Origin: Arthrobacter sp. B3I9
GTDB taxonomy: Bacteria; Actinomycetota; Actinomycetes; Actinomycetales; Micrococcaceae
Length of the DNA: 64,000 nt
Assembly: GCF_030816935.1 (NCBI RefSeq)
Contig: NZ_JAUSYO010000001.1
Span: 2,232,001-2,296,000 of the forward strand
Direction: 5' to 3'
How positions within the stretch are numbered: position 1 is the first letter of the stretch; each line of letters opens with the position of its first letter. This document shows positions 27,989 through 63,955 of the stretch, in pieces. The translations under genes were made by a program, and so were the position numbers. Below the pieces are notes generated by a model that searched no databases, was not told the origin of the DNA, and saw nothing but the letters and a program-made list of their open reading frames with translations.

Positions 27989-28002
27989 CTCCACCGCCAC
28001 GC

Positions 28003-30313: not shown

Positions 30314-30739
30314 ATGATGTTCACTCATGATGACCCGATTCTCGTCCTGGACGAAGAGCAGTCCTGGAAGCTTCTGGAAAACACCCAGCATGGCCGCCTG
30401 GTCCTTACTGCAGCCGGAGAAACCGACATCTTTCCGATCAATTACCGCGCCCGCAACGGCGTCGTAATCCTGCGCACAGCGCCGGGCACCAAACTCGCGG
30501 AGCTCACCGTCAATGCGAACGTCCTCTTCGAAGCCGACGGTATCACCAGCGAGGAAGCTTGGAGTGTGGTGCTTAAGGGCACGGCGCGAGTACTGACAGG
30601 GAGCCAGGAAATCGCCGATGCGGAGGCTCTGGACCTGAAGTCGTGGGTACCCACTCCCAAGGACTTCTTTGTCGAAATCCGGCCCTCGCGCCTCCGCGGC
30701 CGGCACTTCAACTTTGGCGAGCAGCCGGAACGGTTCTGA
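30314..30739 (+). CDS. Pyridoxamine 5'-phosphate oxidase-like FMN split-barrel protein (copy 1)
   Basis: 141 residues of the Pyridox_ox_2 type: ENTQHGRLVLTAAGETDIFPINY, ILRTAPGTKL, FEADGITSEEAWSVVLKGTARVL and a C-terminal RLRGRHF. These bind FMN, F420 or haem-related ligands; the reaction cannot be told. ATG 30314 or 30317 is more likely than TTG 30284. It is the first of three paralogues within 5 kb and is convergent with the flavohaemoglobin gene. Confidence 0.85.
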   Translation: MMFTHDDPILVLDEEQSWKLLENTQHGRLVLTAAGETDIFPINYRARNGVVILRTAPGTKLAELTVNANVLFEADGITSEEAWSVVLKGTARVLTGSQEIADAEALDLKSWVPTPKDFFVEIRPSRLRGRHFNFGEQPERF

Positions 30740-30768
30740 GTGGCGCCATCATATTCTGGTCGGCGCCT

Positions 30769-31986: not shown

Positions 31987-32207
31987 CTCCTGGCTCCTCC
32001 GGCACGGGCTCGACGGCGGTTGGGTGGCGGTTGCTTCAACGTAGCACCGGGGGCGCCCGGGGGAACAGGGGCTCCCCGTCCCTCGTCCCGGGCTAACCAG
32101 TCCCGTGCTCTCAAGCAGGGGCCGGCGTACGATGGCCTAAGGCCCGCAGCCCGGTGCGTTGGCGTCGCCGGTGACGGGTGTCCCTGTTCGGCGGAGGAGC
32201 AGTGCCC

Positions 32208-33485: not shown

Positions 33486-33903
33486 CTGGGGGAGTGACGG
33501 TGAAGCGCCTGCCCGTAATGGAGGTGGGGACGATGCGGACAAAGTGGTCCTTGTGGCCGGACTGCCACGGGAAGAGGAGGAGCCCGACGGTGTCGAGCAC
33601 GTCCTCTGCGGACCTGATCGTCTCCGCTTGTCCTTTCACGACAACGCTCCATGCGACGCCAGTGTCCGCGTTGACGCCGTCGGCCTCCAAAGCCACGGGC
33701 GCTTCGGCAAGGGCCAGGTCAAGCTTGGTCCCCTCGCCCGAGCGGAAGACTATCGTTCCGTGGTCGACCACGTAGTTGAGCGGGAAAATGTCCGGGTGGT
33801 CCTCCGCCCAAACGGCCAGCCGCCCCACGGAAACTTTGCGCAATTGCTCCCAGCATTGCTCGGAGCTAAGGACCTCGATGTCAGGGGTGGACGGGTGGTT
33901 CAT
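33436..33903 (-). CDS. Pyridoxamine 5'-phosphate oxidase-like FMN split-barrel protein (copy 2)
   Basis: 155 residues with the same signatures as copies 1 and 3: VSVGRLAVWAEDHPDIFPLNYV, IVFRSGEGTKL, EADGVNADTGVAWSVVVKG and ITGRRF. The start is ATG 33903; the much longer frame to 34524 is antisense to the DUF1003 gene. Its 3' end overlaps the glycosyltransferase gene by 50 nt. Confidence 0.85.
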   Translation of the reverse strand: MNHPSTPDIEVLSSEQCWEQLRKVSVGRLAVWAEDHPDIFPLNYVVDHGTIVFRSGEGTKLDLALAEAPVALEADGVNADTGVAWSVVVKGQAETIRSAEDVLDTVGLLLFPWQSGHKDHFVRIVPTSITGRRFTVTPPATWWSSLNQAPRAGME

Positions 33904-33990
33904 CACGTTTCCGAGGATACGCACAACGGCATTGAATTGACAGGGTTTCGGCGGCCCCCGCCGCCGGCCGGGGCAGCGGTACCCTGAGTC

Positions 33991-34407
33991 ATGAAAGAGC
34001 AAAAAGCCACGTGGCATACCCGGCACAAGTCGTCCCTGTCCAGGGGAGACCGGGCGGCCGACTACGTGCGCAACGGTATGGGCAGCTGGCCTTTCGTGGG
34101 CGGCTTCATCCTCCTCATGATCGTGTGGGCGGCAGTTAACAGCTTCGTGCTCACTGGCCGCGCGTGGGATCCGTACCCTTACATTCTGCTGAACCTGTTT
34201 CTGTCGATGATTGCCGGGCTGCAGGGGGCCATCCTCCTGATTGCCGCAAAGCGCCAAGACGCTATCGCGTCGGCCATGGCCCAGCACGACTACGACACGG
34301 ACCGGGAAGCGAAAGACGAGATTGAACGGCTCATAAAGATCAATGAACAGCAGCTGGCAATCCTCTGCGAACTCCAGTCGCAGTCCGGCAGCAACAACAA
34401 GCCGTAG
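33991..34407 (+). CDS. DUF1003 membrane protein
   Basis: 138 residues: basic N-terminus, ADYVRNGMGSWPFVGGFILLMIVWAAVNSF, two transmembrane helices (about 35-55 and 66-90), then a long amphipathic helix (about 95-130). Typical DUF1003 (cyclic-nucleotide-channel-like small protein), function unknown. It is divergent from copy 2 of the FMN protein. Confidence 0.88.
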   Translation: MKEQKATWHTRHKSSLSRGDRAADYVRNGMGSWPFVGGFILLMIVWAAVNSFVLTGRAWDPYPYILLNLFLSMIAGLQGAILLIAAKRQDAIASAMAQHDYDTDREAKDEIERLIKINEQQLAILCELQSQSGSNNKP

Positions 34408-34516
34408 CAAAGGCCGGGCCACCGTGGGGACGCCGCTATGGCCGGGGATAAGCACCCCCGGGTACTGGCCGCTCACCCGGTGATTTCCCCGGCTCCAGCA
34501 GGTATGGTGGCTGTCC

Positions 34517-34981
34517 ATGGACACTGCTGCGCCCTCAACGGGGAATCTGAGCTATGACGCTTGCTGGGAACTGCTGGCGGCCGGGATCGTGGGGCGCCTC
34601 GCCGTTATTGTCGACGGCCGCCCTGAAATATTTCCCCTGAACTATGTCCTGGACCGGCGGAGCATTGTTTTCCGGTCGTCCGGTGGCACCAAGCTTTGGG
34701 GCGCGCAAGCCGCAAGGGCCGCCGCTTTGGAGATCGACGGCTATGACCCCCAGCTGCAGGAGGCATGGAGCGTTGTAGTCACGGGTGACACGGAGGTCAT
34801 CAGCAGACAGGAGGAGAAGGATGCGGTGGACGCGCTCGGCCTGGAGCCCTGGCAACCCGGAGAGAAGTCGCACTACATCCGCCTGGCACCCCAGGTCCTG
34901 ACCGGACGCCAGTTCAAAGTCAGTCGACCGGACCTCTGGAACACGCGCCTGAGCGATGCCCGGCGCTCAACGTTCGAGTAG
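34517..34981 (+). CDS. Pyridoxamine 5'-phosphate oxidase-like FMN split-barrel protein (copy 3)
   Basis: 154 residues closely resembling copy 2: AAGIVGRLAVIVDGRPEIFPLNYVLD, IVFRSSGGTKL, EIDGYDPQLQEAWSVVVTGDTEV and LTGRQFKVSRP. It lies 109 nt after the DUF1003 gene and probably shares its message. It is convergent with the PRISE-like gene. Confidence 0.86.
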   Translation: MDTAAPSTGNLSYDACWELLAAGIVGRLAVIVDGRPEIFPLNYVLDRRSIVFRSSGGTKLWGAQAARAAALEIDGYDPQLQEAWSVVVTGDTEVISRQEEKDAVDALGLEPWQPGEKSHYIRLAPQVLTGRQFKVSRPDLWNTRLSDARRSTFE

Positions 34982-34995
34982 CAGAGCCCCGCTGT

Positions 34996-36090
34996 TCAGG
35001 GGATGATCTTTTCCCCGCGGTACCGGTCGAACAGCCGGATGAAGCAGTCTTCCGTGCGCCGGTAGCCGTCAAAGCCGGCCAGGCGGCTCTTGCTCATGTC
35101 CGCGAGGACCTCGATGTTGCGTCCCAGGTCGGCGTCCGTGTGCCACCATGACGCCACACGCGCCAGGTCGGCCTCGGCAAGACCGCGAGCGGCCGCAATT
35201 GTGGACCATTCGTGGCCCATCCCGCCCATCTGTTCCTCGAGCGGCCTTGGCGAGCCCACGAAGCCTTCGGCTTTAACTCCGAAATAGGCTGCCAGCTTTG
35301 GCCACATCCAGCGCCATCTGAAGACGTCCCCGTTGACCACGTTGTAGGCCTGGTTGCCGGCTTCTTCGGTGGTTGCGGCCCAGAGCATGTGCTCGGCCAA
35401 GAGGTCACTGTCGGTCATGTCCGTGATGCCGTTCCACTGCATTTCGGAGCCGGGAAAGACGAAGGGCCTCCCGAGCTCCTTGCACAGGGTTGCCTGCGCC
35501 GCCAACGTCAGGCCCATGTTCATCGCGTTACCGACGGCATGGCCGATCACCGTGTGCGCACGGTGCACGGACCACCGGTACCCCTGCCGTTCTGCGGCGG
35601 CCCACAGCTCGTCTTCCTGCGCGTAGTAGAAGTTCGGCGCCGGCAGCCGGGGCTCGTCCTCCCGGAAGGGCGTGTCCGGAACGGGGCCGGCCCCGTACGA
35701 CTCGAACGGACCCAGGTAGTGCTTCAGTCCGGTCATCAGTGCTACGTGTTCGACGGGCGCATGATCCAGGGCGCCGAGAAGGTTCCGGAGCATTTCGACG
35801 TTGACCCGGATGTTCTCTTGTTCGGTGTCCTGCCTGGCCCACGCGGTGAAGAAAACATGGGTTGGTTTTTCGTCTCGGAGGGCAAGGGAGAGGCTGTCCG
35901 GCGACAACAGATCGGCAGCGATGTGCCGTGCGGGCGAGCCGGGGGACGGTTTCCGGGACAGCGCCAGTACTGTCCAGGTACCGTCTGCGGCCAGCAGGTC
36001 GACGATGGCCGAACCTGCGATGCCACTTGCGCCGACAACCAGCGCCGTTTTGGGTGTGTGGGCGCCCGAGCGGACTGCGGGGGAGGTCAT
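34996..36090 (-). CDS. SDR family oxidoreductase, PRISE-like (progesterone 5-beta-reductase/iridoid synthase group)
   Basis: 364 residues with an NADPH-binding Rossmann start (ALVVGASGIAGSAIVDLLA) and the group-specific GLKHYLGPFE and FYYAQED segments; the Tyr of FYYAQED is the catalytic residue. The family reduces enones; the bacterial substrate is unknown. It is followed (in the direction of transcription) by the convergent FMN protein and preceded at 110 nt by a SnoaL-like gene on the same strand. Confidence 0.87.
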   Translation of the reverse strand: MTSPAVRSGAHTPKTALVVGASGIAGSAIVDLLAADGTWTVLALSRKPSPGSPARHIAADLLSPDSLSLALRDEKPTHVFFTAWARQDTEQENIRVNVEMLRNLLGALDHAPVEHVALMTGLKHYLGPFESYGAGPVPDTPFREDEPRLPAPNFYYAQEDELWAAAERQGYRWSVHRAHTVIGHAVGNAMNMGLTLAAQATLCKELGRPFVFPGSEMQWNGITDMTDSDLLAEHMLWAATTEEAGNQAYNVVNGDVFRWRWMWPKLAAYFGVKAEGFVGSPRPLEEQMGGMGHEWSTIAAARGLAEADLARVASWWHTDADLGRNIEVLADMSKSRLAGFDGYRRTEDCFIRLFDRYRGEKIIP

Positions 36091-36200
36091 AACTACCTGG
36101 CTTTCTTAGAAGCGGTTGCACGCCGCGGCACGAGTTGAGCATGGCCTTGTCCACGGACAGCGAGGTGCTCCGGTGTCGAGTCTAGGCCCAACGGGCCGAT

Positions 36201-36584
36201 CTAGTGACCGCCACCCGCGAGGTATTCGGCGGCATTGTACTGAATCCGGAGCTCCCGGATCCTGTCGCCGTCGAACACAAAGAACTCGGAAAACCGGACG
36301 GTCGCGTCGGGCAGCTTCGCGTCGTAGAGCACCGCTGCGGCGTCGGACGTGACGACCGCCTGGAGAACCGTGATGTCGTGGACCGCTTCTATGAAGCCGC
36401 GGACCCCGTGGGCGAAGCGGTCGCCGCCGGCGATTCTGCCGGCGATCGGTCCCTCGAACACGAAATCTTCGCTCAACAGCGGCAGGAGAGTACGTCCGTC
36501 CTCGTACCGGTCCGCGCCCGCGCTGAGGACCTCGTAGTAGCGGCGGAGCGTCGGAGATTTTTCGAGGGTGGCCCCTGTGAGCAT
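36201..36584 (-). CDS. SnoaL-like/NTF2-fold protein
   Basis: 127 residues with the NTF2-like pattern (LRRYYEVLSAGADRYEDGRTLLPLLSEDFVFEGPIAG, RFSEFFVFDGDRIRELRIQYN). The fold serves polyketide cyclases, isomerases and many unknowns. AGGAGG 4 nt before ATG 36584. It may be co-transcribed with the PRISE-like reductase. Confidence 0.82.
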   Translation of the reverse strand: MLTGATLEKSPTLRRYYEVLSAGADRYEDGRTLLPLLSEDFVFEGPIAGRIAGGDRFAHGVRGFIEAVHDITVLQAVVTSDAAAVLYDAKLPDATVRFSEFFVFDGDRIRELRIQYNAAEYLAGGGH

Positions 36585-36685
36585 GATGCCTCCTGCAGCA
36601 CGAACAGCAGTGTGAGAACACTTGCAAGGTTCAATTCGGCATTCCCGAATGTCAAGTGCGGCGGTGAGGAAAGACCCTGCCCGGG

Positions 36686-37417
36686 CTAGGACAACCGGGC
36701 CACATTTCGCCGCAGCGGCCGGCGGGCGGAGCCGTCCGAGAACAGGTCGGGGGAGGACGCCTGGATCCGCTTAACGTCGTCGAACACGCCGCGGAGGTGG
36801 AGCCGCAGGGAACTGTCGGCGTCGGCGAGGTTCTTTGATTCGAGTGCGTCCACGACGGCGGTGTGCTGGGCAATCAGGGTGGAAACCGGGCGGGTGTCGA
36901 TCAGGCTCAGCCGCCGGGCCCGGTCCAGGTGCGCCTTGGCCGAATTCACGGCTGTCCAGGCCGACTCGTGCCCGGCCAGGCGCAGCAGCTCCCGGTGGAA
37001 TTCCTCATCAAGCCGGAAGAACTCCTCGATGTTGCCCTCGGCCTCGGCGCTGCGCTGGCTGGCCAGGATCTCGCGGAGGCCGGCCATCCCTGCCGCGTCA
37101 GCGGTGAAATCGGTGAGCGAGGCGCACTCTATGGCTTCCCGGACGAACTGGGCCTGGGCCACCCGCCCCAGATCCACCAGCGAGACGAACGAACCGATCT
37201 GCGGGAAGACCTGCACCAGGCCTTCCTCCCGCAGAAGAATCAGGCTTTCCCGCACCGGGGTGCGGCTGACACCCATCTCCTGGGCAAGTTCATTTTCCGA
37301 CAATGGCTGACCCGGAGGGAGCTCTAGCGAAATGATCCTGCGCCGCAGCGTTTCTAGAGTCTGATCGCGAACGGACAGCCGCGGAAACTGCCCTTTATCG
37401 CCTTTGTTGCCTGCCAT
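36686..37417 (-). CDS. GntR/FadR family regulator (FCD domain)
   Basis: 243 residues: winged helix (about 14-80; LSENELAQEMGVSRTPVRESLILLREEGLVQVFPQIGSFV) and an all-helical FCD effector domain with His/Asp metal ligands (EFHRELLRLAGH). It is divergent from manD, and such pairs are usually regulator and target; the likely effector is a sugar acid such as mannonate or KDG. The overlap of an inverted repeat and the manD promoter supports repression. Confidence 0.9.
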   Translation of the reverse strand: MAGNKGDKGQFPRLSVRDQTLETLRRRIISLELPPGQPLSENELAQEMGVSRTPVRESLILLREEGLVQVFPQIGSFVSLVDLGRVAQAQFVREAIECASLTDFTADAAGMAGLREILASQRSAEAEGNIEEFFRLDEEFHRELLRLAGHESAWTAVNSAKAHLDRARRLSLIDTRPVSTLIAQHTAVVDALESKNLADADSSLRLHLRGVFDDVKRIQASSPDLFSDGSARRPLRRNVARLS

Positions 37418-37421
37418 GGAA

Positions 37422-37465
37422 CCATTCTAGCGACCGTTGACAAACTAGAATGGTAGTGCTTGTAT
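37422..37465 (+). promoter_or_regulatory. manD promoter with overlapping inverted repeat
   Basis: TTGACA (37437-37442), 17-nt spacer, TTGTAT (37460-37465) is a near-consensus promoter. CCATTCTAG (37422-37430) and CTAGAATGG (37445-37453) form a perfect 9-bp inverted repeat spanning the -35, and ATGGTAG is repeated at 37451 and 37464. This is the probable operator of the divergent FadR-type regulator. Confidence 0.7.
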
Positions 37466-37578
37466 GGTAGCTAGAGCCGCGGAAACAGCCGGCCTTGCCC
37501 CCTCTTCCTGTCCCTTGGGAAGGTAGAGGCCGGGCTGGCTGCAAATTCAACTCCGGCCCACCATCTGAAGGACCTCCA

Positions 37579-38790
37579 GTGAAGATCACCGACGCACGGG
37601 TAGTGGTTTCGTCGCCAGGACGGAATTACGTCACGCTCGTAATCGAAACCGAAGACGGCATCACCGGCATCGGCGACGCCACCCTGAACGGGCGCGAGTT
37701 GGCCGTCGCCTCCTATCTGGCCGACCACCTGTGCCCCCTGCTGATCGGCCGCGACGCCCGCCGCATCGAGGACGCGTGGCAGTACTTCTACAAGGGCGCC
37801 TACTGGCGCCGCGGACCGGTGACCATGACGGCGATCGCGGCGATCGACGTCGCGCTCTGGGACATCAAGGGCAAGGCCGCCGGCATGCCCGTTTACGAAC
37901 TCCTGGGCGGAGCGGCCCGCGAGGGCGTCATGGTCTACGGCCACGCCAGCGGTTCTTCCCTGGACGACCTGAGCGCGGACTTCCAGCACCACCTGGACCT
38001 CGGCTACAAGGCCATCCGTGCCCAGGCCGCCGTTCCGGGGCTGGACAAGACCTACGGCATCGCGCCCGTGGACGGGAAGCTTTACGAACCGGCCAGCAGC
38101 AACGTCCCGCAGGAAGACACCTGGGAAACCACCGCCTACCTGGACTTCGCCCCGAAGATGATGGCGCACGTGCGGGAGCAGTTCGGCTACGGCGTCCATG
38201 TGCTGCATGACGTGCACCACCGGCTGACGCCGATCGAGGCAGGCCGCCTGGGCGCGTCGCTGGAGCAGTACCGGCCGTTCTGGATCGAGGACCCGACGCC
38301 GGCCGAGGACCAGTCCGCGTTCCGGCTGATCCGCCAGCACACTACGACGCCGGTCGCGGTGGGGGAGGTGTTCAACTCTATCTGGGACTGCCAGCAGCTG
38401 ATCACCGAGCGCCTGATCGACTACATCCGCACGTCGGTCTCGCATGCCGGCGGCATCACGCACCTGCGCAGGATCTTCTCCCTCGCGGACCTTTACGGCG
38501 TGCGCTCCGGCTCCCACGGCGCGGGCGATCTCTCACCCGTCTCCTTCGCGGCCGCGCTGCATGTGGACATGAGCATCCCCAACTTCGGCATCCAGGAGTA
38601 CATGGGACACCGCGACCCGGCCAACGAGGTCTTCGAAACTTCCTACTCCTTCACCGACGGCTACATGCATCCCGGAGATGCGCCCGGACTCGGTGTGCAG
38701 TTCAATGAAGAGGCAGCCGCCGCCTACCCGTTCGACGCCAAATACCTGCCCGTCAACCGGCGGCTCGACGGATCGGTGCACGACTGGTGA
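37579..38790 (+). CDS. manD: D-mannonate dehydratase, enolase superfamily
   Basis: Dehydrates D-mannonate to 2-keto-3-deoxygluconate. 403 residues. The ManD catalytic set is present: Arg147, Tyr159, metal ligands Asp211, Glu237 and Glu263, and His213/His313. GTG start with AAGGA at 6 nt; a 110-nt 5' leader separates it from the promoter. Some family members act poorly on mannonate or prefer gluconate, so the substrate is inferred from motifs and the adjacent aldolase. Confidence 0.92.
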
Positions 38791-39002
38791 ACGACGCGAC
38801 GCACAAGCCAACGGGAGCTCACGCGGCCCTGCCCGCCACCCGCTCTGCGGCGACCGTTGTTCCTGCCCTGCTGGGGTTCCGGCGCATTTTCGGCCAGGAC
38901 CTGGAGCAGCACGAGGGGTTCAAGAACTTGCTCCTCAACTGGTACGGCATCATTGAAACCGACGGGCTGGACGGCCTGAGAAAAGAGATCAACCATGGCT
39001 GA
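38787..39002 (+). pseudogene. Remnant of a mannitol dehydrogenase/fructuronate reductase-type gene
   Basis: A 71-codon frame overlapping the manD stop (GTGA) and the eda start (8 nt). The N-terminal 25 residues are nondescript; residues about 27-70 (LLGFRRIFGQDLEQHEGF, then LLLNWYGIIETDGLDGLRK) resemble the C-terminal helix pair of the mannitol dehydrogenase family, which includes UxuB. The coenzyme-binding domain is missing. It looks like an internally deleted gene kept in frame with its neighbours; a functional small protein is the alternative. Confidence 0.5.
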
Positions 39003-39621
39003 CGCATCGGACGTCCTGCGCATTTCACCGGTCATCCCGGTGGTCACCATCGACGACCCCCAGGACGCCGTTCCGCTCGCGAGGGCCCTGGCCGACGGCG
39101 GCGTAAAAATCATCGAGCTCACGCTCCGGACCGACTCCGCGCTGACGTCCCTGAAGCTCATTGCGGAGGAGGTGCCGGACATCCTGGTGGGGGCCGGAAC
39201 CATCCTCACGCCGGGACAGGCCGATGCCGCTGTGTCGGCCGGCGCAAAGTTCCTGGTCAGTCCCGGGGTAACGCCGGGCCTGCTGTCCCACGTGCTCACG
39301 CTTGACGTTCCGGTACTCCCGGGTGTGGCAACCGTGGGGGAGGTCATGGCGGTTCTGGAGAGCGGCCTGGACACCATGAAATTCTTCCCCGCGGGGCCCG
39401 CCGGCGGGCCAGCCTACCTGGCCGCCATCGGCGCGCCCATCCCGCACGTCCGGTTCTGCCCCACAGGCGGGATCAGCCTGGCAACTGCCCCGGACTACCT
39501 GAAGCTTCCGAACGTGTCCTGCGTGGGCGGCAGCTGGCTGACTCCGGCAGCGGCCGTCGCGGCCAAGGATTGGGACACGGTCACCAGCCTGGCCCGCGAG
39601 GCCGCCACGCTCAGCAACTAG
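38995..39621 (+). CDS. eda: KDPG/KHG aldolase
   Basis: Cleaves 2-keto-3-deoxy-6-phosphogluconate to pyruvate and glyceraldehyde 3-phosphate. 208 residues with general base Glu41 (IIELTLRT) and Schiff-base Lys129 (MKFFPA), and VGAGTIL, GVTPG and PTGGI motifs. It closes the mannonate operon; KDG must be phosphorylated by a kinase that is not in this window. Confidence 0.94.
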   Translation: MADASDVLRISPVIPVVTIDDPQDAVPLARALADGGVKIIELTLRTDSALTSLKLIAEEVPDILVGAGTILTPGQADAAVSAGAKFLVSPGVTPGLLSHVLTLDVPVLPGVATVGEVMAVLESGLDTMKFFPAGPAGGPAYLAAIGAPIPHVRFCPTGGISLATAPDYLKLPNVSCVGGSWLTPAAAVAAKDWDTVTSLAREAATLSN

Positions 39622-39664
39622 GGCGCATGGGGCGGGTTCCGGCAAGTTCGCGCTAAAAAGCTAT

Positions 39665-39775
39665 TCAGCGCCAGATGGACGTGAAACGCGTCAGCAGGAC
39701 GATCATCACGATGACCGCGATCGTGAAGAGGATAGTCCGGGTCCAAAGCGAAATTCCCTTGCGGTCAGGGGTCAA
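39665..39775 (-). CDS. 36-residue single-span membrane peptide
   Basis: A TTG start overlaps the stop region of the upstream VOC gene by 11 nt and opens a 36-codon frame: basic-polar N-terminus (LTPDRKGISLWTR), then a 17-residue hydrophobic span (TILFTIAVIVMIVLLTR) and a short aromatic/basic end (FTSIWR). The transmembrane pattern and the overlap suggest a real small gene, but nothing else supports it. Confidence 0.45.
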   Translation of the reverse strand: MTPDRKGISLWTRTILFTIAVIVMIVLLTRFTSIWR

Positions 39776-40142
39776 GCCGCTTGCGCAGGAGGCAGAACTC
39801 ATTGCCCTCTGGGTCGGCCAGAACGTGCCATTGCTCCTCGCCGGACTGTCCGACGTCGGCGGGCCGGGCGCCGAGGTCGAGCAACCGTTCCAGCTCGGCG
39901 TCCTGGTCCCGGTCGACGGGGTTGACGTCGATGTGCAGGGGGAGCTTGCCGGTCCGAGGGTCGCTGCTGGGGCTCAGGATGATGGTCGGCTGCAGGCCAC
40001 CGAACCCGGCGTCGGGCGGCCCGATCTCGATCGCACCATCCTCCCGGCCAAGCTCAACGTAGCCGAGGACCTCGCTCCAGAAGAGCGCGAGCCGTTCGGG
40101 GTCGGCGCAGTCGAGGACCAGTTCACTGATGCGGCATGACAT
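39765..40142 (-). CDS. VOC family protein (glyoxalase-like)
   Basis: 125 residues with a paired beta-alpha-beta VOC fold: ISELVLDCADPERLALFWSEVLGY, LHIDVNP, and WHVLADPEGNEFCLL. It belongs to the group of unknown-function glyoxalase/bleomycin-resistance-like proteins. Confidence 0.87.
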   Translation of the reverse strand: MSCRISELVLDCADPERLALFWSEVLGYVELGREDGAIEIGPPDAGFGGLQPTIILSPSSDPRTGKLPLHIDVNPVDRDQDAELERLLDLGARPADVGQSGEEQWHVLADPEGNEFCLLRKRLDP

Positions 40143-40230
40143 GGGACTCAGTGTACGGATACGTGCGGTTCGGATGCAGCCATGCCGGACCGGCGCCTGA
40201 CGGCATCCTGCGGAGACGACGTGCTGAGTC

Positions 40231-40824
40231 TTAGGCGCCGGGTGCGGCGTCCGGGCCGGGCTGGAGCAAGTGGCGGTACGTATAGAGGTCGCGGAGCAGG
40301 GCGATCTCGGCGAGATGATGGATCATCTCGCGGTTGATGTGCAGGACCAGTGCCGCCATGGGGGCGTCGGCGTACGGTCCTTCGGCTGGCCCGCACGGCG
40401 CCGCCAAACCGGCGTCGCCGAGGCTCTTCACACCGTGGATCCACCGTGCATAATGCTCATCCAGCCGGGCCAGTGCCTCGGCTGCCGTCGCCGGATATTC
40501 GAAGTTCTGGTAGTCAACTGCAGGGCCGCCGAAGTGCGAGGCGGTGCGCGCACCGAGCACACCGACCAAAATGTGGCCCAAGCGCCAGGCAATGGTAGTC
40601 AGCGGAGCCGGAACCGGCTCCGGGTAGCTGAAATCAATGGTGAAATCCCCGGCACCCGGCGCGGTAGGGGAGGTTGAGGCGTCCTTGCGGCGGACATTCC
40701 AGCCCGGAACCGGTTCCCAGAAGTACTCGTAGTCAGTCAGCCCGTTCAGGCGCGGGCGGGCCTGGTTGCTGAAATGCCAGTCCAGTTGTTCCGCCAACTC
40801 GTGGTTCCAGTGAACATCCGGCAT
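40231..40824 (-). CDS. DinB superfamily protein
   Basis: 197 residues, four-helix-bundle DinB/YfiT-like: LDWHFSNQARPRLNGLTDYEYFWEPVPG, TTIAWRLGHILVG and HINREMIHHLAEIALLRDLY with the metal-ligand His residues. Likely a thiol-dependent (mycothiol-type) transferase relative. Unrelated to DNA polymerase IV despite the name. Confidence 0.87.
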   Translation of the reverse strand: MPDVHWNHELAEQLDWHFSNQARPRLNGLTDYEYFWEPVPGWNVRRKDASTSPTAPGAGDFTIDFSYPEPVPAPLTTIAWRLGHILVGVLGARTASHFGGPAVDYQNFEYPATAAEALARLDEHYARWIHGVKSLGDAGLAAPCGPAEGPYADAPMAALVLHINREMIHHLAEIALLRDLYTYRHLLQPGPDAAPGA

Positions 40825-40971
40825 AGCGAACCTCCTTGGGCGTCCAGCCGCGAGTGGCGGGGCGGATTACAGCAAAGTACCGCGAACATTCCGCTGCCGA
40901 AAGACCCCGACCACGCCCGGCAGGCTCCGGCCGGCGAAGGTGAAGCGGGGGAATGCGTGGGGTACGTGCGT

Positions 40972-41550
40972 TCAGTCATGCAGGGTGGGCCGGTAGGTGA
41001 GCTCTTGGACGTGGCCGTCGAGCGTCCGGCTCTCGATCAGCTCGAGGTCGAAGTCGGCTGCACCCCGGAAGATTGGGTCCACTCCGGTCTGACCGGTGAT
41101 GACAGGGAAGAGCGTCACCTGGACGCTGTCGACCAGACCGGCGGCCATCAGCGCCCGGTTCATCGATAGGCTGCCGTGTGAACGCAACGGCACCTCGGAC
41201 TCCTCCTTGAGACGGGCGACGACGTCGACCGCGTCGCCGCTCACAACTGTCGCTTCCGGCCAGTCGAGCGGTCCTTCCAGCGTGGTCGACACCACCGTTG
41301 CCGGCAGGTTCCTCATCAGCGTGACCCATGGGTCACGGACCTCGGATTCCGCGGTGCTCGAGGACAGCATTTCCGCGAATATCCGATACGTGTTGGCCCC
41401 GAACACCATCCGCTGTTCCTCGCTGTACAGGGCGAGGCGGCGCTCGAGCAGTTCTGGGCCTTGCTTGCCCCAGTAGCCGCCCCAGTTGCCGCGGTGGGAG
41501 CCGAAACCGTCAAGGCTGGAAAAGACGTCGAAGGTGTAAGTGGCGGTCAT
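40972..41550 (-). CDS. Dihydrofolate reductase-like (RibD C-terminal) protein
   Basis: 192 residues with the RibD_C/DHFR fold: TFDVFSSLDGFGS, MVFGANTYRIFAEM, HGSLSMNRALMAAGLVDSVQVTLFPVITG. The group contains many NADPH reductases of unknown substrate. The 225 bp upstream (41551-41775) holds no gene. Confidence 0.88.
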   Translation of the reverse strand: MTATYTFDVFSSLDGFGSHRGNWGGYWGKQGPELLERRLALYSEEQRMVFGANTYRIFAEMLSSSTAESEVRDPWVTLMRNLPATVVSTTLEGPLDWPEATVVSGDAVDVVARLKEESEVPLRSHGSLSMNRALMAAGLVDSVQVTLFPVITGQTGVDPIFRGAADFDLELIESRTLDGHVQELTYRPTLHD

Positions 41551-41775
41551 CGTGTGCTCCTCGAGTGCGGTCCGTCGAACGGGGGATACAGAGCGGGATC
41601 ACGGGGAAACCTAGAACGCCGAGCTTCGGCTGTCAACGGTCGCATCACTTAAGCGATTCCTTCCCGGTGTCCACTGATACTTGGGTTGACGCGCCAAGGT
41701 CCTTGACATCGCAAAGTAGCATGGCGGCAGGTTTGGGCCAACGATTGGATCTGTCGAGCGGTCAGGGAGAGCAGC

Positions 41776-42450
41776 ATGAAGCCGTCAGTGCATGTTTTCG
41801 ACGTCAACGAGACGTTGTCGGACATGTCCACCATGGGACAACGGTTCGTTGAAGTCGGGGCACCGGAACATCTGGCCAAGCTGTGGTTCGCGACCCTGTT
41901 GCGCGATGGATTCGCGCTTGCGGCCGCCGGTGACAACGTTCCTTTCGCTGCCATCGGCGCTGAGGCGTTGCCCGGCCTGTTCACCGGTACCGAACTGAAC
42001 CGGGACCTCGAGGCGGCAGTGGAACACATCATGAAGGGTTTTTCCGCGCTCGAGTTGCACCCTGATGTCGTCGATGGCGTGAAGGCCCTGCACGCCGCCG
42101 GATACCGGCTCGCTACTCTAACAAACGGCTCCACGGAGGTGGCCGAAAAGCTGTTCGACGACGCAGGCATCCGCGACAGCTTCGAGCTACTGCTGTCGGT
42201 TGAAGACGCCCGGGCGTGGAAGCCGGGTAAAGCCTCCTATGAGTACGCCGCCGCTGCCCTGGGGACGTCCCCTGAGCAGATGCTGCTGGCCGCTGTCCAT
42301 CCTTGGGATATTCACGGGGCATCCCGCGCCGGCTTGGCCACGGCGTGGATCAATCGCAGGGGCGCGCCGTACCCGAACTATTTCCAAGCGCCGGATCACA
42401 TTGTCTCCGTCCTGCCCGAACTGGTCTCGGCATTGGATGGAAGAACCTGA
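41776..42450 (+). CDS. Haloacid dehalogenase type II
   Basis: 224 residues of the HAD superfamily, L-2-haloacid dehalogenase group: nucleophile Asp9 in FDVNETL, TNGST, and Lys in AWKPGKASYEYAA; the last acidic motif is HPWDIHGASRAGL. The family hydrolyses 2-haloacids, but many members act on other substrates. Its stop codon is inside a terminator stem. Confidence 0.88.
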   Translation: MKPSVHVFDVNETLSDMSTMGQRFVEVGAPEHLAKLWFATLLRDGFALAAAGDNVPFAAIGAEALPGLFTGTELNRDLEAAVEHIMKGFSALELHPDVVDGVKALHAAGYRLATLTNGSTEVAEKLFDDAGIRDSFELLLSVEDARAWKPGKASYEYAAAALGTSPEQMLLAAVHPWDIHGASRAGLATAWINRRGAPYPNYFQAPDHIVSVLPELVSALDGRT

Positions 42451-42472
42451 CGGTCGGCACGACCGTCAGGTT
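42444..42472 (+). terminator. Terminator overlapping the dehalogenase stop
   Basis: Perfect 13-bp stem (42444-42456 with 42460-42472) with a 3-nt loop; the TGA stop lies in the left arm. The tail is TTGGTCTG. Confidence 0.8.
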
Positions 42473-42555
42473 GGTCTGCGGAAGCGTACCGGAGCCGGCC
42501 TTGTCCCTGGCGGAAACCCGGTGCTTGCCACGGATGTTTAGGGCAGACTGGTGGC

Positions 42556-43629
42556 GTGAGCCAAATCCGGTGGGTGCTGCACGTCGATCTCGACCAGTTC
42601 ATAGCGGCGGTTGAAGTGCTCCGGCGGCCGGAGCTTGCCGGCAGGCCGATCATTGTCGGCGGTCGCGGCGACCCCACGGAACGAGCTGTGGTGTCGACCG
42701 CATCCTATGAAGCAAGGGCCTTCGGCGTGGGTTCGGGAATGCCTTTACGCATTGCGGCCCGAAAGGTGCCAGACGCTGTAATCCTGCCCGTCGACCAGGA
42801 GGCTTACCTCGCGGCCTCTGAAACCGTCATGGCTACCCTGCGCGAGCAGCCCGGCGCCACCGTGCAGGTGCTGGGTTGGGACGAGGCCTTTGTCGGCACT
42901 GAAACGGAGAACCCTGAAGCCTACGCCCGGCACGTGCAGGCCGCTGTCCTGGAGCGAACGCAACTGCACTGCAGCGTTGGCATCGGTGACACTCTGGTCC
43001 GAGCCAAGGTCGCCACCGGTTTCGGCAAGCCGGCCGGCGTCTTCCGTCTCACTTCCGGGAACTGGCTCGACGTCATGGGCAGCCGGCCCACCAAGGACCT
43101 GTGGGGGGTCGGGACCAAAGTGTCGGGGCGGTTGGCCAAACTGGGCATCAACACAGTCGCCGAGCTGGCCGCGTCCGACCCCCAAGACCTGGTCCCGGAG
43201 TTCGGCCCGAGGATGGGTCCTTGGTATGCGGAGCTCGGACGGGGGGACGGCGCCAGCGTTGTGGATGACACGCCCTGGGTTGCCCGCGGGCATAGCCGGG
43301 AGACCACCTTCCAGCGCGACCTGACCGAGCCGGCCCAGGTGGAGGACGCGGTGAGGGACCTGACAGCGCGTGTCCTTGAGGATGTTGTGGCCGAAGGACG
43401 GCCGGTGGTCGGCCTGACCCTCAAGGTCCGATACGCGCCATTCTTCACCAAGACCCACGCGCGGAAGATTCCCGAGACATTCGACCGGAATTACATCCTC
43501 GCGCGCGCCTTGGACCTCGCCGCCGGAATCGAAGCGGACCGTCCAATCCGGCTCCTGGGCCTGCGGGCCGAAATGGCAATGCCGGACGACGCTCGAAAGG
43601 GCCATACCCCCACGCGCGGCGGTTGGTGA
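42556..43629 (+). CDS. Y-family DNA polymerase IV, DinB2-like (no aromatic steric gate)
   Basis: Lesion-bypass polymerase of 357 residues. Catalytic acids are D11 (HVDLDQF) and D109-E110 (LGWDEAF); fingers motif YEARAFGVGSGMPL is near 51. The residue at the steric-gate position (aligned with Dpo4 Tyr12) is Ile16, not Tyr or Phe. M. smegmatis DinB2, with the same HVDLDQF signature and Leu at this place, readily inserts ribonucleotides. The C-terminus lacks an obvious beta-clamp motif. GTG start at 42556. A housekeeping DinB with an aromatic gate would be expected elsewhere. Confidence 0.9.
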   Translation: MSQIRWVLHVDLDQFIAAVEVLRRPELAGRPIIVGGRGDPTERAVVSTASYEARAFGVGSGMPLRIAARKVPDAVILPVDQEAYLAASETVMATLREQPGATVQVLGWDEAFVGTETENPEAYARHVQAAVLERTQLHCSVGIGDTLVRAKVATGFGKPAGVFRLTSGNWLDVMGSRPTKDLWGVGTKVSGRLAKLGINTVAELAASDPQDLVPEFGPRMGPWYAELGRGDGASVVDDTPWVARGHSRETTFQRDLTEPAQVEDAVRDLTARVLEDVVAEGRPVVGLTLKVRYAPFFTKTHARKIPETFDRNYILARALDLAAGIEADRPIRLLGLRAEMAMPDDARKGHTPTRGGW

Positions 43630-43793
43630 CCGCGCCGCATCACACCCAGGACGATGACGACGATGGCGAGCGCGCCCGCACACCAGAGGACCACCTGGTT
43701 CGCAAGGGCGGTCAGCACCAGGCGGTAACGCATATTGAGGACATGCGGGGGCGGCTCCGCAACCGTGTCGGCGGCCGGTGGGATCATGACCCT

Positions 43794-44075
43794 ATGACGG
43801 CTCCAACGGTGGAAGCGGCGACCAATGATCTGATGGATCGGGCCTGGAACGTTGTCTATGACCTGCTCGCGGAGCGCGGGTTGTTCCGTGACGGGCTGGA
43901 CGTCGAGGAGTACACCGGGATCCATTCCTGGGTGGACGGCCTCATCCGGTACACAGTGGTCCACTCCCGATCCGTAGCGGTGCTTTTCCAGGACACCTGC
44001 CCGGTGGACGCGGTGGTGTTCCACCACGACCTGCTCGGCGCGGACGACCCGAAAAGCTACTTTTCCTTCCCTTAG
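43794..44075 (+). CDS. Hypothetical protein, 93 residues
   Basis: A small acidic soluble-looking protein (MDRAWNVVYDLLAERGLFRDGLDVEEYTGIHSWVDGLIRYTVVHSRSVAVLFQDTCPVD). No family recognised. ATG 43794 is chosen because the sequence before it looks non-coding. Confidence 0.6.
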   Translation: MTAPTVEAATNDLMDRAWNVVYDLLAERGLFRDGLDVEEYTGIHSWVDGLIRYTVVHSRSVAVLFQDTCPVDAVVFHHDLLGADDPKSYFSFP

Positions 44076-44398
44076 CCCCTTAGTCCCTCCGCCCGACGAC
44101 CATGGCGGGCGGCTGCGCTGGGTTCTTCGCAGCTGCGACGCCCGGCAACATCGCCGAACCACTTGTGCCACGCTGATGCGACCCAACTGGCAATTCCCGC
44201 TCCTGGACATCAAGAACCGGTGAGGCCGTGTTGAAAGTAGTGCCCTAGGGACGATTCCACATGGTCGGGCGAGGGCAACTTGAGGGGATCTTTAGTCTTT
44301 CCAGAACAAAAACGATCGTTTTGGTTGACACGGTTGGGGGAGGAGATGCCAAATAGTCACTCCCGGGGAGACGGCACTAGAACAAGTTGGATGGAGAG
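44076..44398 (+). other. Intergenic region with a 14-bp palindrome and TTGACA
   Basis: No gene seen in 323 bp. At 44309-44322 the perfect palindrome AAAACGATCGTTTT occurs, and TTGACA at 44325-44330 follows 2 nt later; the -10 is unclear. The palindrome resembles LacI-type operators (central CG), and its place just before a -35 suggests control of the small gene at 44399. The region is more AT-rich than its surroundings. Confidence 0.5.
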
Positions 44399-44608
44399 AT
44401 GAACGCACCGGCATTTGAGGAAGTTCGTCAACGAACCTATGACGTACTGGCAAAAGTTCAGGAAAAGTTGCGGTCCGACTGGCTCTACGATGACCAAGGG
44501 CCGAGCCATGAGCAGGTTGAGGCTCTGGACGAGGCGCGCAAACACGTAGCTGCGGCGAGGGCTGCCCTGCGCAAAGCTGCCCCGGTGCCGGGCTCCGTCG
44601 TACCTTAA
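44399..44608 (+). CDS. Small helical hypothetical protein
   Basis: 69 residues, nearly all helical and charged (FEEVRQRTYDVLAKVQEKLRSDW, EQVEALDEARKHVAAARAALRKA), suggesting a two-helix coiled coil. No family recognised. ATG 44399 or TTG 44387 could start it; neither has a well spaced ribosome site. Confidence 0.55.
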   Translation: MNAPAFEEVRQRTYDVLAKVQEKLRSDWLYDDQGPSHEQVEALDEARKHVAAARAALRKAAPVPGSVVP

Positions 44609-44722
44609 CAGGTGGACCATACCGAGCTTCGCTGGGCGGCGTTGAGGCGGAGGAGGTCGGAGCTGACGTTCCGGGCGGGGCGGGGAACGTAGCTGACCGT
44701 CGACCCGGTCAACGGCGTCGTT

Positions 44723-44932
44723 TCACGGGCAGGCCGCCCCGCGCGGCATCGTTGCGATGAGCGGGCCTCCGGTGGCCCATGAGGCGGAATCCTCCTGAAT
44801 TCGGACGCCGTGTGAGGAGCCGGGCCACAGGGGATCGAAGCCCACGAAATTCGCCGACAGTTCCAGGACCACGCTGAGACGTCTCGCTGATCTGCCTCTT
44901 ATACGGGCGAACCGCTTTCCCGTCCCGGTCAT
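44723..44932 (-). CDS. Hypothetical protein, 69 residues
   Basis: Starts with ATG overlapping the stop of the upstream gene (ATGA), which argues for a coupled two-gene unit. N-terminus is basic (KRFARIRGRSARRL); the rest (LSANFVGFDPLWPGSSHGVRIQED) matches nothing I recognise. The 114 bp downstream shows no gene. Confidence 0.4.
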   Translation of the reverse strand: MTGTGKRFARIRGRSARRLSVVLELSANFVGFDPLWPGSSHGVRIQEDSASWATGGPLIATMPRGAACP

Positions 44933-45513
44933 AGGTCGTTTGCTCCTCTTGGAGGGCAGCCGTCGTGTACCGGCAGTAAAGGGTGGGGGTAGGTGGCTGC
45001 GTCGACGGCGTCCAACACCTCCAATGCCGTCAGGTGTGCCGCCACTGCGACGTCTTTAATCGCCTTGCCGTGGGTGATTGCTGCGGCGACCGCAGAGTGC
45101 AGGCGGGTGACGCCTTGACCGTCGGTTCTAGAAGATTCGAGCAGTGCGGCGGCCTCTTCCACGGCGAGGATTTCGTTGTCGTTCACCACAGTCCTCCAGT
45201 CGCGTCGGGTCGTTTCCGGCAACCGGTCCGGGAGGGCGCCAGGGCTCAGTGTCTGCCCTCGGAGCGTGAGCTGGTATTGGGCCAGTGCTGTTTCCGGCTG
45301 CCCTGGGTGGGCCGCGAGGAGGCGGCGGAGCGCATCTCTGGTCCCGGCGTGGTGCGGGTCAGTCTCTGACAGCATGGCCTCGATGATGTCAGCGGCCTGT
45401 CGACCTATTCCCGCGACGTCCTCGTCCGGGGAGATCGCGGGCTCCGCGGTTGCCGGCGGTCCACACCGACTCGCCGGTCGACGAATTAGCCATAACCTCA
45501 ACTTTGCGTCCAA
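44929..45513 (-). CDS. Hypothetical protein, 194 residues
   Basis: A long frame with helical segments: ADIIEAMLSETDP...TRDALRRLLAAHPGQ, then LAVEEAAALLESS and GKAIKDVAVAAHLTALEVLDAVDAA. The last could be a helix-turn-helix. TTG 45513 or ATG 45375 may be the start. It ends in ATGA with the next gene. The 270 bp before the polyketide synthase (45514-45783) contains no gene. Confidence 0.55.
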   Translation of the reverse strand: MDAKLRLWLIRRPASRCGPPATAEPAISPDEDVAGIGRQAADIIEAMLSETDPHHAGTRDALRRLLAAHPGQPETALAQYQLTLRGQTLSPGALPDRLPETTRRDWRTVVNDNEILAVEEAAALLESSRTDGQGVTRLHSAVAAAITHGKAIKDVAVAAHLTALEVLDAVDAATYPHPLLPVHDGCPPRGANDL

Positions 45514-45783
45514 AATGCCGTGGGCTCAAACATCGATCCTGCTGACTACCGGGATTTTTCGTCCCAAGAACCCTGGCCCGGGATTGTTCGTGTGTGTGCG
45601 GAAGTTGCCACCGGCGAACGTTGCCAAAGCAGCTACTTTACATAATGTCGATTATCGGCGCTTTAGAACAAGCCCTGGAAGGGGCTGGAGTCCCGTCCGG
45701 CTGGGCCTTCGCCCACGCGACTCGGCCCGGTCCTCCGTCAGGCCAATCATTGTCTTTAGCGTCGGCCTCACTGAGAATGAACC

Positions 45784-59915: not shown

Positions 59916-60752
59916 CTACAGATTCTCCAGCTCCGAGCTCGGAGTTGCCTGGTCCGCTGTGGCTTCTGTCTCCGCATCCCGCTTGACAGCGCGCCGGTCC
60001 CGGCGGCGGTCATTGATCAGGCAGAGGCCGATGGCCGTGAAAAAGAGGACCAGCATGGGCCCGGCGAGGTAGAACATGCTCATCGCATCGGCCCCGGGAG
60101 CTGCCATCGCGGCGAACAGGCAGACGAGGAATACCGTGATGCGCCAGCTCTTGACCAGCTGCTGGCCCTTGACCAGGCCGGCGAGATTCAGGCCGACAAG
60201 GACCACCGGCAGGAGGAAGGCAATGCCGAAGGCGAGCAGCAGGCGGAGCACGAATGACAGGTAGACCTGGGCGCTGATGAAGTTCGATCCCCCCGACGGG
60301 GTGAAGTCGGTCAGCACGCGGACCGCGTTCGGCAGCACCAGCCAGGCCAGCAGCACGCCGCCGACAAAAAGCGGCACCGCGGCGGCGACAAAGGACAAGG
60401 CCAGCCGGCGTTCCTTTTTGTGCAGCCCGGGCACGATGAAAGCCCACAGCTGGTACAGCCATACAGGGCTGGCAACGATGAGCCCAAGGAAAACGGACAC
60501 CTGGATCATCAGGTCGAAGGAGCTTGCCACGCCGTCGAAGTTCAGCGTGGCCTGCCTGCCCTGATGCTCGTTCAGGTCGCGGATCGGCTTGATCAGCGCC
60601 GCGAGCATCGGCTGGTAGACGAGGAAGCCGACGACTGTTCCCAGCACGACGGCGATCGCTGACTTGAAGAGCCGGTTCCGCAGCTCTTTCAGGTGGTCAA
60701 GGAGGGCCATCCGCCCTTCGGGATTAGACCGGCGGCCCATGGATACTGCCAT
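59916..60752 (-). CDS. tatC: Sec-independent translocase TatC
   Basis: Receptor subunit of the twin-arginine translocase, recognising the RR signal. 278 residues, six transmembrane helices, starting RMALLDHLKELRNRLFKS, with the conserved Glu in this region and FVVAAAVPLFVGG later. It is 6 nt after tatA. The C-terminal tail is charged and acidic. Confidence 0.95.
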   Translation of the reverse strand: MAVSMGRRSNPEGRMALLDHLKELRNRLFKSAIAVVLGTVVGFLVYQPMLAALIKPIRDLNEHQGRQATLNFDGVASSFDLMIQVSVFLGLIVASPVWLYQLWAFIVPGLHKKERRLALSFVAAAVPLFVGGVLLAWLVLPNAVRVLTDFTPSGGSNFISAQVYLSFVLRLLLAFGIAFLLPVVLVGLNLAGLVKGQQLVKSWRITVFLVCLFAAMAAPGADAMSMFYLAGPMLVLFFTAIGLCLINDRRRDRRAVKRDAETEATADQATPSSELENL

Positions 60753-60758
60753 GGGGAA

Positions 60759-61028
60759 TTACGCGCGGTTGGGAGGCGGGACGTCGGTTCCTTCGCCCGG
60801 TCGGCCCTGGGTGCCAGGAGTCCGCGGGTGGTTCACGACCCGGCCCTCGACGGGGTCGGTTTCCGGCGTGGCGTCGGTTTTGCCGTCCTTTTTCATTTCA
60901 CGGACCTCCGACTTGAAGATACGCATCGACTGGCCGAGGCTGCGGGCCATGCCGGGGAGCTTAGGAGCTGCGAAAAGCACCAGTGCCAGAACGATGATGA
61001 TGATGAGATGCCAGCCTTCAAGCCTCAT
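60759..61028 (-). CDS. tatA: Sec-independent translocase TatA
   Basis: Pore/assembly subunit of 89 residues: short N-terminus, one transmembrane helix (about 7-22; LIIIIVLALVLFAAPKLPG), amphipathic helix (MARSLGQSMRIFKSEV) and an acidic/polar tail. It precedes tatC; no separate tatB is seen in the window. Confidence 0.95.
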   Translation of the reverse strand: MRLEGWHLIIIIVLALVLFAAPKLPGMARSLGQSMRIFKSEVREMKKDGKTDATPETDPVEGRVVNHPRTPGTQGRPGEGTDVPPPNRA

Positions 61029-61064: not shown

Positions 61065-61430
61065 CTAACTGAATTCGATGTCGTGCAGCCGCTGGGGCTG
61101 GCCGCGGTCCGCCTTACGCTGGACGCGGCGCAGCCGGCGGGCCTCCCTGCGGGCCGCCTTAGCCGCCTCGTAGTCGTGCCGGACCCGGGCGGGCGGAGCG
61201 TAAACGGCGGACCCTGAGGCCAGAGCTGTCGGAGTTGCCGGAGTGCCGGGCTCGGCGGGCGCTGGAACCGGAGTGGCGGACGGCAAGTGGCCGAACCGGT
61301 CCCCCGCTTCGCCAAGTTCCTTCACCGTCGTCATGAACTTCCGGTACAAACGGACGCCGAGAACGACGAAGAACAACAGGGACAGCGCGACGAGCGCTAT
61401 CCAGATTACAATCCAGGACCACCAAGGCAT
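61065..61430 (-). CDS. Small membrane protein between pafBC and tatA
   Basis: 121 residues: an N-terminal transmembrane helix (about 5-27; IVIWIALVALSLLFFVVLGV), then a Pro/Ala-rich linker and a strongly basic C-terminus (ARREARRLRRVQRK). No family recognised. It lies in the operon with pafBC and tat genes, with 26-36 nt gaps, so it may be co-translated. Confidence 0.75.
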   Translation of the reverse strand: MPWWSWIVIWIALVALSLLFFVVLGVRLYRKFMTTVKELGEAGDRFGHLPSATPVPAPAEPGTPATPTALASGSAVYAPPARVRHDYEAAKAARREARRLRRVQRKADRGQPQRLHDIEFS

Positions 61431-61456: not shown

Positions 61457-63461
61457 CTAGTCTTCGTACTGGCCCCGGGCAGCCTCAACCCAGTCCCGCG
61501 CCGCGTCGGCGAGGTCCGCCGGCTCCAGGACCCGGACCGCGCCGCCGTGCTGTGCCGCGAACATCGGAAGCCAGCCCGGATTGCCGAAGCGGATTTCCGC
61601 GAGCAGCCCGCCCCCTGGCAGGGCCGCGGTGCGTTCCGCGTAGTAGTCATCGGCTAGCCCGATGCCCCGGGGGGCCAGTTCGACGACGACGACAGTGTCG
61701 TCGTCGTTCGGGGTGAACAGTTTCACGGGCTGGCTCTCGCCGGGAGCGGCCGTCGCCGACACCGGGTGGCCGGTGGGATGCAGCTCCTCAATCCGGTCCA
61801 GGCGGAAGTTGCGCAGGCCCTGCGCCGAGTGGCAGTAGGCCTCGAGGTACCAGGTGCTGTCCAGTGAATAAAGCCGCAGCGGGTCCACGTCGCGCTCCGA
61901 GACAGCGTCCCTCTGCGGGGAGAAATAGCGCAGGCGCAGCTGCGCGCCGTCGCGGATGGCTTCGCGGGCCACGTCAAGCGTCCGCGAGTCTTTCGGCCCG
62001 ACCTCCGGGCCGGACAGGGAGGCTGCCTTCAGCCCCTCCTCCCCCGCGGCTGCCAGCAGCTTGAGCGTGACCGACTCCAGGGCGCCGCCGGCTGCGAGCT
62101 CGGGAAGGCCGTTGAGCGTTTCCAGGCCGGTCAGCAGGGCGCAGGCCTCCTCCACGGTGAAGCGCACGGGGCGGTTAAGGTCCAGGTCCTGGGTGATGAA
62201 GACGTGGTCATCGTCCCACTGGATGTCCAGCAGGTCATCCGGGTACCCCTCGGGAAGGCCCGAGCAGATCAGGATCCGGAGGTCGTCCTCGAGTTCCTTG
62301 CGGGTTATACCGAACCGTGCCGCGACCTCGCTGATGTGCAGGCCCTGGTTGTGGACCAGGAATGGGACCAGCTGGAGCATCCGTTTGAGCTGGTCCTCGG
62401 AAGTCCGTTTGTGCCGGCGTTTGGCCGGACCGGCCTCCGGAAAGGCGATCACCGGGGCTGGGGAGGACGCGAAGTCCGCCGCTGCGGCCAGCCGGCGCCG
62501 CACGGCCGTCACGAGCTCGGGCGGGGCCACAACCTTGACCCGCGGGCCGTAGGAGGCGAGTTCCTCCCCGAGGGTCTCGGCGTCACGGAACGGGACCGCC
62601 AGGCGGTCCCGGCCGGGTGCCGGTTCTCCACCGGGCTGCGCGGCAGGTTCTGCGCCGGGCTGGACCGGCCGGGCCCGCTTACGCAGCCCCAGCAGCCGGT
62701 CCGCCTCTACGTCAACCACTGCGGTCCGCAGGGGCAGCTCGGCCAGTTCTGCGAGCTCGGCGCGGACGTTGAAGCGGGCAGGCGGCGTGAATGTTTCCTT
62801 TTCGAGCACGGTCACGGCGGAGGTCAGGCGGGAAAGCCGGAAGAACCGGCGTTCCCCGCGCGTCTGGTCACGGCCGACGAGGTACCACTGGCCGAAGCGG
62901 CTGCCGAGGCCCCAGGGCTCGACGCGACGCTCCTCCTCCTTGCCGGTGCTGCTGGCGAGGTAGGAAAAGCTGACCGGGGTGCTGGGCGTGCATGGCGGTG
63001 ACGAGGTCCTCAAACGCCTGTCCTGCCGGGCGGATGCGCGGCTGGACGCCGGCGGGAAGCTCGGCGTCGGACAGCCCGCCGGCAGCCTGGAGCTTGCGTA
63101 CCGCGTCCAGCGCTGCGGAGCCGAGGGCGGCGTGTTCCCAGAGCTGCGCCGCCAGGATCAGGACCGTGCACTCTTCCGGGGTCAGGCTGACGTCCGGCAG
63201 TCGGTTGGAGTCCTTGCCGATCCGGTACCGCGTGGTGGCCGGGTCATCGGAGCCCCAGCCCTTGTCCGTCAGCGTCTCCACCTCGAAGCCGAACTGCCGC
63301 AGCTCCGTCTTGTCGCGCTCGAACATCCGGCCGAAGGAGACGTCGCTGCTCACCGAGTCGTGATACACCTTTTCCCGCAGCTCGCTGCGGCGCAGGCCGT
63401 ACTTCGTGTTCAACAGCGCGATGAGCAGGTTCAGGAGGCGTTCAGTACGTGAGGCGGACAC
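61457..63461 (-). pseudogene. pafBC: pafBC fused transcriptional regulator, disrupted by a one-base frameshift
   Basis: PafB and PafC are one gene here, as described for Arthrobacter. PafB begins at GTG 63461 (VSASRTERLLNLLIALLNTKYG) with an HTH and runs to ...AMHAQHP; the frame then shifts by one base at 62976-62979, a run of four G on the plus strand (four C on the coding strand), where three would restore VSFSYLAS. The rest carries the first WYL domain (QWYLVGRD), a linker, then the PafC half with HTH (near LVHNQGLHISEVAARFG) and WYL (STWYLEAY). Repaired, it is 667 residues. PafBC activates DNA-damage genes. Sequencing error is the first alternative; a real mutation would remove most of PafBC. 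Confidence 0.88.
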
Positions 63462-63559: not shown

Positions 63560-63955
63560 CTAGCGGACGGCGACCAGGTCGACGACGAAGATCAGCGCCT
63601 CGTTCGGTCCGATCGCTCCGCCGGCGCCTCGGGAGCCGTAAGCGAGTTCGGAGGGGATTTCGAGTCGGCGGCGGCCGCCGACCTTCATGCCCAGCAGGCC
63701 CTGGTCCCAGCCCTGGATGACCTGGCCGACGCCGACGCGGAAGTCCAGCGGAGCGCCGCGGCCCCAGGAGGCGTCAAATTCTTCACCGGTGGACCAGGCC
63801 ACACCGACGTAGTGGGTGGAGACGGTGTCGCCGGTCTTTGCTTCGGCGCCGTCACCCTCGATCAGGTCCGTGATGACCAGTTCTGTGGGAACGTCGCCTT
63901 CGGGGAAGTCGATTTCCGGCTTCTGGCGGTCGAGGTCGCGCTGTCCAAATGACAT
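63560..63955 (-). CDS. FKBP-type peptidyl-prolyl isomerase
   Basis: Cis-trans prolyl isomerase of 131 residues: VSTHYVGVAWSTGEEFDASWGRGAPLDFRVG, VIQGWDQGLLGMKVGGRRRLEIP and LAYGSRGAGG...LIFVVDLVAV. An N-terminal 30-residue extension precedes the fold; no signal peptide, so cytosolic. AAGGAG 5 nt before the ATG. The remaining 45 nt at the right edge is its upstream region. Confidence 0.94.
   Translation of the reverse strand: MSFGQRDLDRQKPEIDFPEGDVPTELVITDLIEGDGAEAKTGDTVSTHYVGVAWSTGEEFDASWGRGAPLDFRVGVGQVIQGWDQGLLGMKVGGRRRLEIPSELAYGSRGAGGAIGPNEALIFVVDLVAVR

Follow-up and report, generated by a model that had tools for sequence, protein, structure and literature searches.

The fused pafBC gene of Arthrobacter sp. 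B3I9 is split between two reading frames, and this frame break is present in the sequence as given. Sequence comparison makes it very probable that the break arose when one extra base entered this single-contig assembly by error, in a gene that would otherwise be ordinary. This reading is favoured by similar insertions in gyrA, in dnaE2 (twice) and in other genes of the same genome, by an intact, near-identical protein encoded on a database contig, and by a shorter stretch at the site in relatives. By estimate, the assembly contains several tens of 1–2 base insertions, of which this would be one, and the living strain would most likely make a normal fused PafBC. Both the origin of the insertions in sequencing or assembly and an intact protein in the cell are our inference. 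The original prediction had offered loss of the gene, sequence error and a programmed shift as three unranked readings, among which the evidence favours error.

Organisation of the split pafBC locus

The pafBC gene occupies positions 61457–63461 on the reverse strand of the window (the whole 64,000-nucleotide stretch that was analysed), as delimited by the list of open reading frames (ORFs) and by alignments. The genome is a single contig of 4,123,267 bases with a listed completeness of 99.99%. The first part of the gene (frame A, 62979..63461, reverse strand) encodes the N-terminal half of PafB, consisting of the winged HTH and the helices that follow it. Frame A starts with a GTG at 63461 (VSASRTERLL...) and, past the break, continues through out-of-frame residues until it stops at 62868, for a total of 197 aa. 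The second part (frame B, 61457..62977, reverse strand) encodes the rest of PafB (WYL and WCX), a linker and the whole of PafC (HTH_PafC, WYL and WCX). It is open down to a stop at 61457, with the listed ORF comprising 518 aa from a TTG at 63013.

Pfam profiles matched frame B as WYL (PF13280) and WCX (PF25583), each in two stretches, and as HTH_PafC (PF19187). Frame A alone gave no Pfam match at E ≤ 0.001, and its domains were assigned by comparison with PafBC as described in the available part of PMC6789036. Tandem HTH-WYL-WCX modules are thus found across the two frames, the first HTH being recognized because frame A is 96.9% identical to the matching part of the intact protein of G010, the closest relative compared. 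Frame B matches the solved PafBC structure (6SJ9_A) with an E-value of 2.2e-203, its residues 12–517 aligning to residues 161–663 of the 6SJ9 chain. The protein of PDB entry 6SJ9 is the PafBC of Arthrobacter aurescens, a natural fusion that, from the available part of PMC6789036, has the same domain order and the same fusion as the gene described here. Unlike 6SJ9, the present gene changes frame at a length difference of one base, and the single uninterrupted reading frame of a fused PafBC is absent from this assembly. In all other respects it is an ordinary Arthrobacter/Pseudarthrobacter-type member of a known family, whose nearest relatives by pafBC are named Arthrobacter and Pseudarthrobacter.

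The gene lies close to Pup-proteasome genes. Upstream is an FKBP-type peptidyl-prolyl isomerase (63560..63955, reverse strand), beyond which, just outside the window, the order is a Pup-ligase gene, two proteasome subunits, a second Pup-ligase-family gene and a proteasomal ATPase. The downstream neighbours, all on the reverse strand, are a 121-aa ORF (61065–61430), tatA (60759–61028) and tatC (59916–60752), and a DEAD/DSHCT helicase is encoded on the tatA/tatC side of pafBC.

Alignment to relatives placed the break where the WYL domain of PafB begins (62973..62983, reverse strand). Residues 1–162 of the intact 682-aa ORF of G010 correspond to frame A (96.9% identity) and residues 162–682 to frame B (84.2% identity), with the frame switching at 62976–62977. 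The gene identity, the fusion, and the frame break and its place had all been called from the sequence in the original prediction, and were correct as judged by the ORFs, the Pfam and 6SJ9 matches and the G010 alignment. The same prediction attributed the break to a C run; positions 62976–62979 do read GGGG on the plus strand as it stated, but naming this run as the site of the extra base is uncertain, because relatives that keep the frame spell the site differently and the alignment does not give the exact position of the additional base. The window contains 514 runs of at least four G or C, and the pafBC region alone has 21, so that a run is uninformative by itself and the frame break is what counts.

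The site in relatives

The length of the site was compared in 18 relatives, and the presence of an open frame across it in 29 loci of the genus. A run-length comparison with relatives had been proposed as a check on the break, and in it the stretch proved to be one base shorter in 18 of 18 aligned relatives than here. One open frame crosses the site in 28 of the 29 genus loci, the remaining one being broken elsewhere. Across same-genus genomes, 33 of 36 hold one open pafBC frame (655–803 aa); the exceptions are G027, which is 68% complete and gave weak matches, G028, in which the gene lies on two contigs, and G030, in which it is broken elsewhere. A single frame was also found for 79 of 80 named Arthrobacter-group loci (650–793 aa, with one locus, L045, reaching a contig end). 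The sole exception among the 80, Arthrobacter sp. Hiyo4 (AP014718.1), likewise has a frame-broken pafBC in a single-contig assembly, but its break lies elsewhere, downstream, and it is of normal length at the site that is broken in this genome.

These counts bear on the idea that the two frames are joined into full-length PafBC by a +1 shift at the run, whether programmed or leaky. A +1 shift can proceed by a codon re-pairing one base forward, and the zero-frame proline codon at the site could re-pair in this manner. However, the longer stretch occurs in 0 of the 18 relatives, with one frame kept in 79 of the 80 named and 28 of the 29 genus loci, so a programmed site would be unique to this strain, and the conservation of a shift site among relatives that marks a programmed +1 gene is lacking. 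The other insertions of this genome, moreover, sit in unrelated genes. A programmed frameshift was rejected on the absence of the longer stretch in the aligned relatives, and is hardly credible as an account of the break.

The best of 564 database matches, of which 120 were listed, was an intact 667-aa PafBC (P0001) on a 2,428-base JGI contig, probably derived from a metagenome. It differs from this genome at 10 of 667 residues when the two parts are compared separately (3 of 161 and 7 of 506). We infer that P0001 and this strain belong to the same species, in which case the broken state would not be a fixed trait of the lineage; being a different strain, P0001 is silent on what this strain carries. 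A search of a plasmid collection gave no match.

Frame breaks across the genome

Three samples amounting to 484 kb of this genome were compared with the syntenic DNA of G010. Split genes were filtered for flanks that were both at least 40 aa long and 78% identical, and those that passed were inspected by eye. Conserved genes were split in 14 of 243 cases in this genome, of which nine passed the filter and two were dropped by eye, leaving seven: pafBC, gyrA, an MFS-type transporter, a 134-aa protein, mrpA, a GNAT/AAA protein and an oligopeptide-type permease. A thiolase, which failed the filter, was recognized by eye as an eighth and counted separately. All seven and the thiolase are insertions of 1–2 bases in this genome (two-sided sign test for insertion bias, p = 0.016 for seven and p = 0.008 for eight), although, since the count of seven rests on the filter and on inspection, the statement that all are insertions is valid for the kept cases only. 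The two dropped cases were a 438-aa ORF with an N-terminal extension ahead of a hisC-like sequence, and a 270-aa ORF with several indels that include deletions, which is probably not coding there. Four further, ambiguous cases did not pass (407, 372, 739 and 175 aa), the 407- and 372-aa cases including deletions.

NCBIfam matches for gyrA, mrpA and the thiolase were above the cut-offs, those behind the names of the MFS-type, GNAT/AAA and permease genes fell below theirs, and the 134-aa protein had no family match. The names hisC, mrpE, ctaD, uvrB and dnaE2 are our own presumptive assignments. On the contig, the breaks in the MFS-type, 134-aa, thiolase, permease, GNAT/AAA and mrpA genes lie near 239504, 267495, 391488, 423506, 455990 and 554994, respectively.

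In the reverse test, with G010 genes aligned on this genome, 9 of 246 were split and one passed the filter, an ORF in the mrp operon at which this genome is one base longer. This ORF (~557967–558788) overruns the end of its G010 counterpart. Four of the nine reverse splits fall at breaks that the forward comparison had included (pafBC, gyrA, mrpA and an ORF antisense to the permease), and another four are ambiguous and at N-termini; at one N-terminal case it is G010 that is two bases longer, before the point where a ctaD-like gene probably starts. The difference between 7 of 243 and 1 of 246 gives a Fisher p of 0.037. Unrelated conserved genes thus carry similar indels here, with few in the assembly of the relative, which is the pattern expected of assembly error. 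In-frame stops were found in 10 of 243 genes of this genome versus 18 of 246 of G010, nearly all near ORF ends, and were read as over-extended ORF ends. As stops are not in excess, the surplus in this genome concerns frame breaks rather than stops.

Extrapolation from eight breaks in 484 kb gives ~68 breaks genome-wide, at a rate per kb that is rough because 484 kb is the supplied length and includes stretches without a counterpart in G010, which yield no genes (in the first sample, approximately 25800–45600 of the window and everything more than 3 kb outside it). Two figures count against the error reading: the window's own sample contained one split in 34 genes, and the genome is listed as 99.99% complete.

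Long-read assemblies are known for gene-fragmenting indels, and those treated in the available part of the Kastor paper (PMC12007338) are also short, lie in many cases at short runs and hit conserved genes. In contrast to those indels, every case kept in this genome is an insertion, and the likeness drawn is one of indel pattern. A narrow literature search for PacBio insertion errors with gyrA returned nothing.

gyrA and dnaE2

The gyrA gene is frame-split on the reverse strand at 302443–305131 of the contig, with a one-base length difference to G010, near 302993, that divides it after residue 711 of 893. The other gyrA/parC-type gene of the genome shares 49% identity with it and has an unbroken frame. 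The gyrA break is probably another assembly error.

A dnaE profile search found two separate one-base insertions in the second dnaE-type gene, dnaE2 (2124809–2128311 of the contig), which we take to be a member of the damage-response pathway. The insertions lie near 2125980 and 2127479 of the contig. The three resulting segments share 96–97% protein identity with the intact G010 gene, and dnaE2 is in one frame in five of five relatives searched. Two frameshifts combined with such conservation point to insertion error and not to gene loss. A true recent frameshift loss of both PafBC and DnaE2 is very improbable; were it true, this would be a natural soil actinobacterium with a dismantled mutagenic damage response that retains a PafBC-type site ahead of uvrB.

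The same breaks might be genuine mutations throughout, in a strain that is a true insertion-biased mutator. That the seven kept breaks, the thiolase and both dnaE2 breaks are all insertions is what such a mutator would produce, but it would have to live with a shortened gyrA and an extrapolated 68 or so broken genes, in a 4.1 Mb genome whose proteins are otherwise strongly conserved, and the idea has next to no probability. The families rpoC, dnaE1, ileS and valS, located by profile search, are each in one open frame (the valS match being below the curated cut-off), and these four unbroken large families indicate that the insertion rate is modest. Under assembly error, tens of small insertions seem to be scattered through the genome record and would make conserved genes, including gyrA, mimic pseudogenes, and caution is warranted before a lone frame break in it is given a biological meaning.

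Possible loss of PafBC and the damage response

In mycobacteria, single-stranded DNA on the WYL domains activates PafBC, and RNA polymerase–SigA is redirected to damage promoters. Such single-stranded-DNA-activated transcription, from RecA-NDp promoters, is described for mycobacteria in the available parts of PMC11804915 and PMC6789036. A literature search for PafBC with frameshift gave mostly mycobacteria among the matches listed, and this case is not claimed to be absent from print.

A real break would reduce the first product to the DNA-binding half of PafB, and loss of function would be expected. A real, recent and strain-specific loss, by a one-base slip in a short run, would leave PafB as a 197-aa fragment and, beside it, a second piece that lacks a good start, with single-stranded DNA sensing and sigma adaptation gone, and the strain would offer a natural experiment on how a cell lives without PafBC. 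The break does stand in the sequence, dnaE2 is also broken in this genome, and the starts available to the second part are poor (TTG at 63013, CTG at 62827, and GTG at 62815 and 62809, with no ATG in the first 80 codons), all of which is consistent with loss. Against it, small insertions are also found in gyrA and other unrelated conserved genes, and a dnaE2 with two independent insertions but otherwise 96–97% conservation is unlike a decaying gene. Such a loss is given only a small chance.

Pairwise dN/dS against two relatives was low, at 0.038–0.059 for frame A and 0.145–0.171 for frame B, and similar to the values between the two intact relatives, 0.049 for the first piece and 0.129 for the second, so that no clear sign of relaxed constraint was seen in the pafBC pieces. 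A recent event would show no relaxed dN/dS, and the absence of relaxation fits an error or a very recent mutation alike. Gene decay was set aside for want of clear relaxation, though a recent loss would look equal.

A site with the RecA-NDp pattern still present ahead of a uvrB-like gene argues against PafBC loss, though weakly, since a recent loss would leave the site as well and in G010 no uvrB site matched this strict pattern. The pattern used is a presumed one for RecA-NDp. The site lies at 2410477–2410499 of the contig on the reverse strand, and the uvrB-like gene starts 29 bases after its first base.
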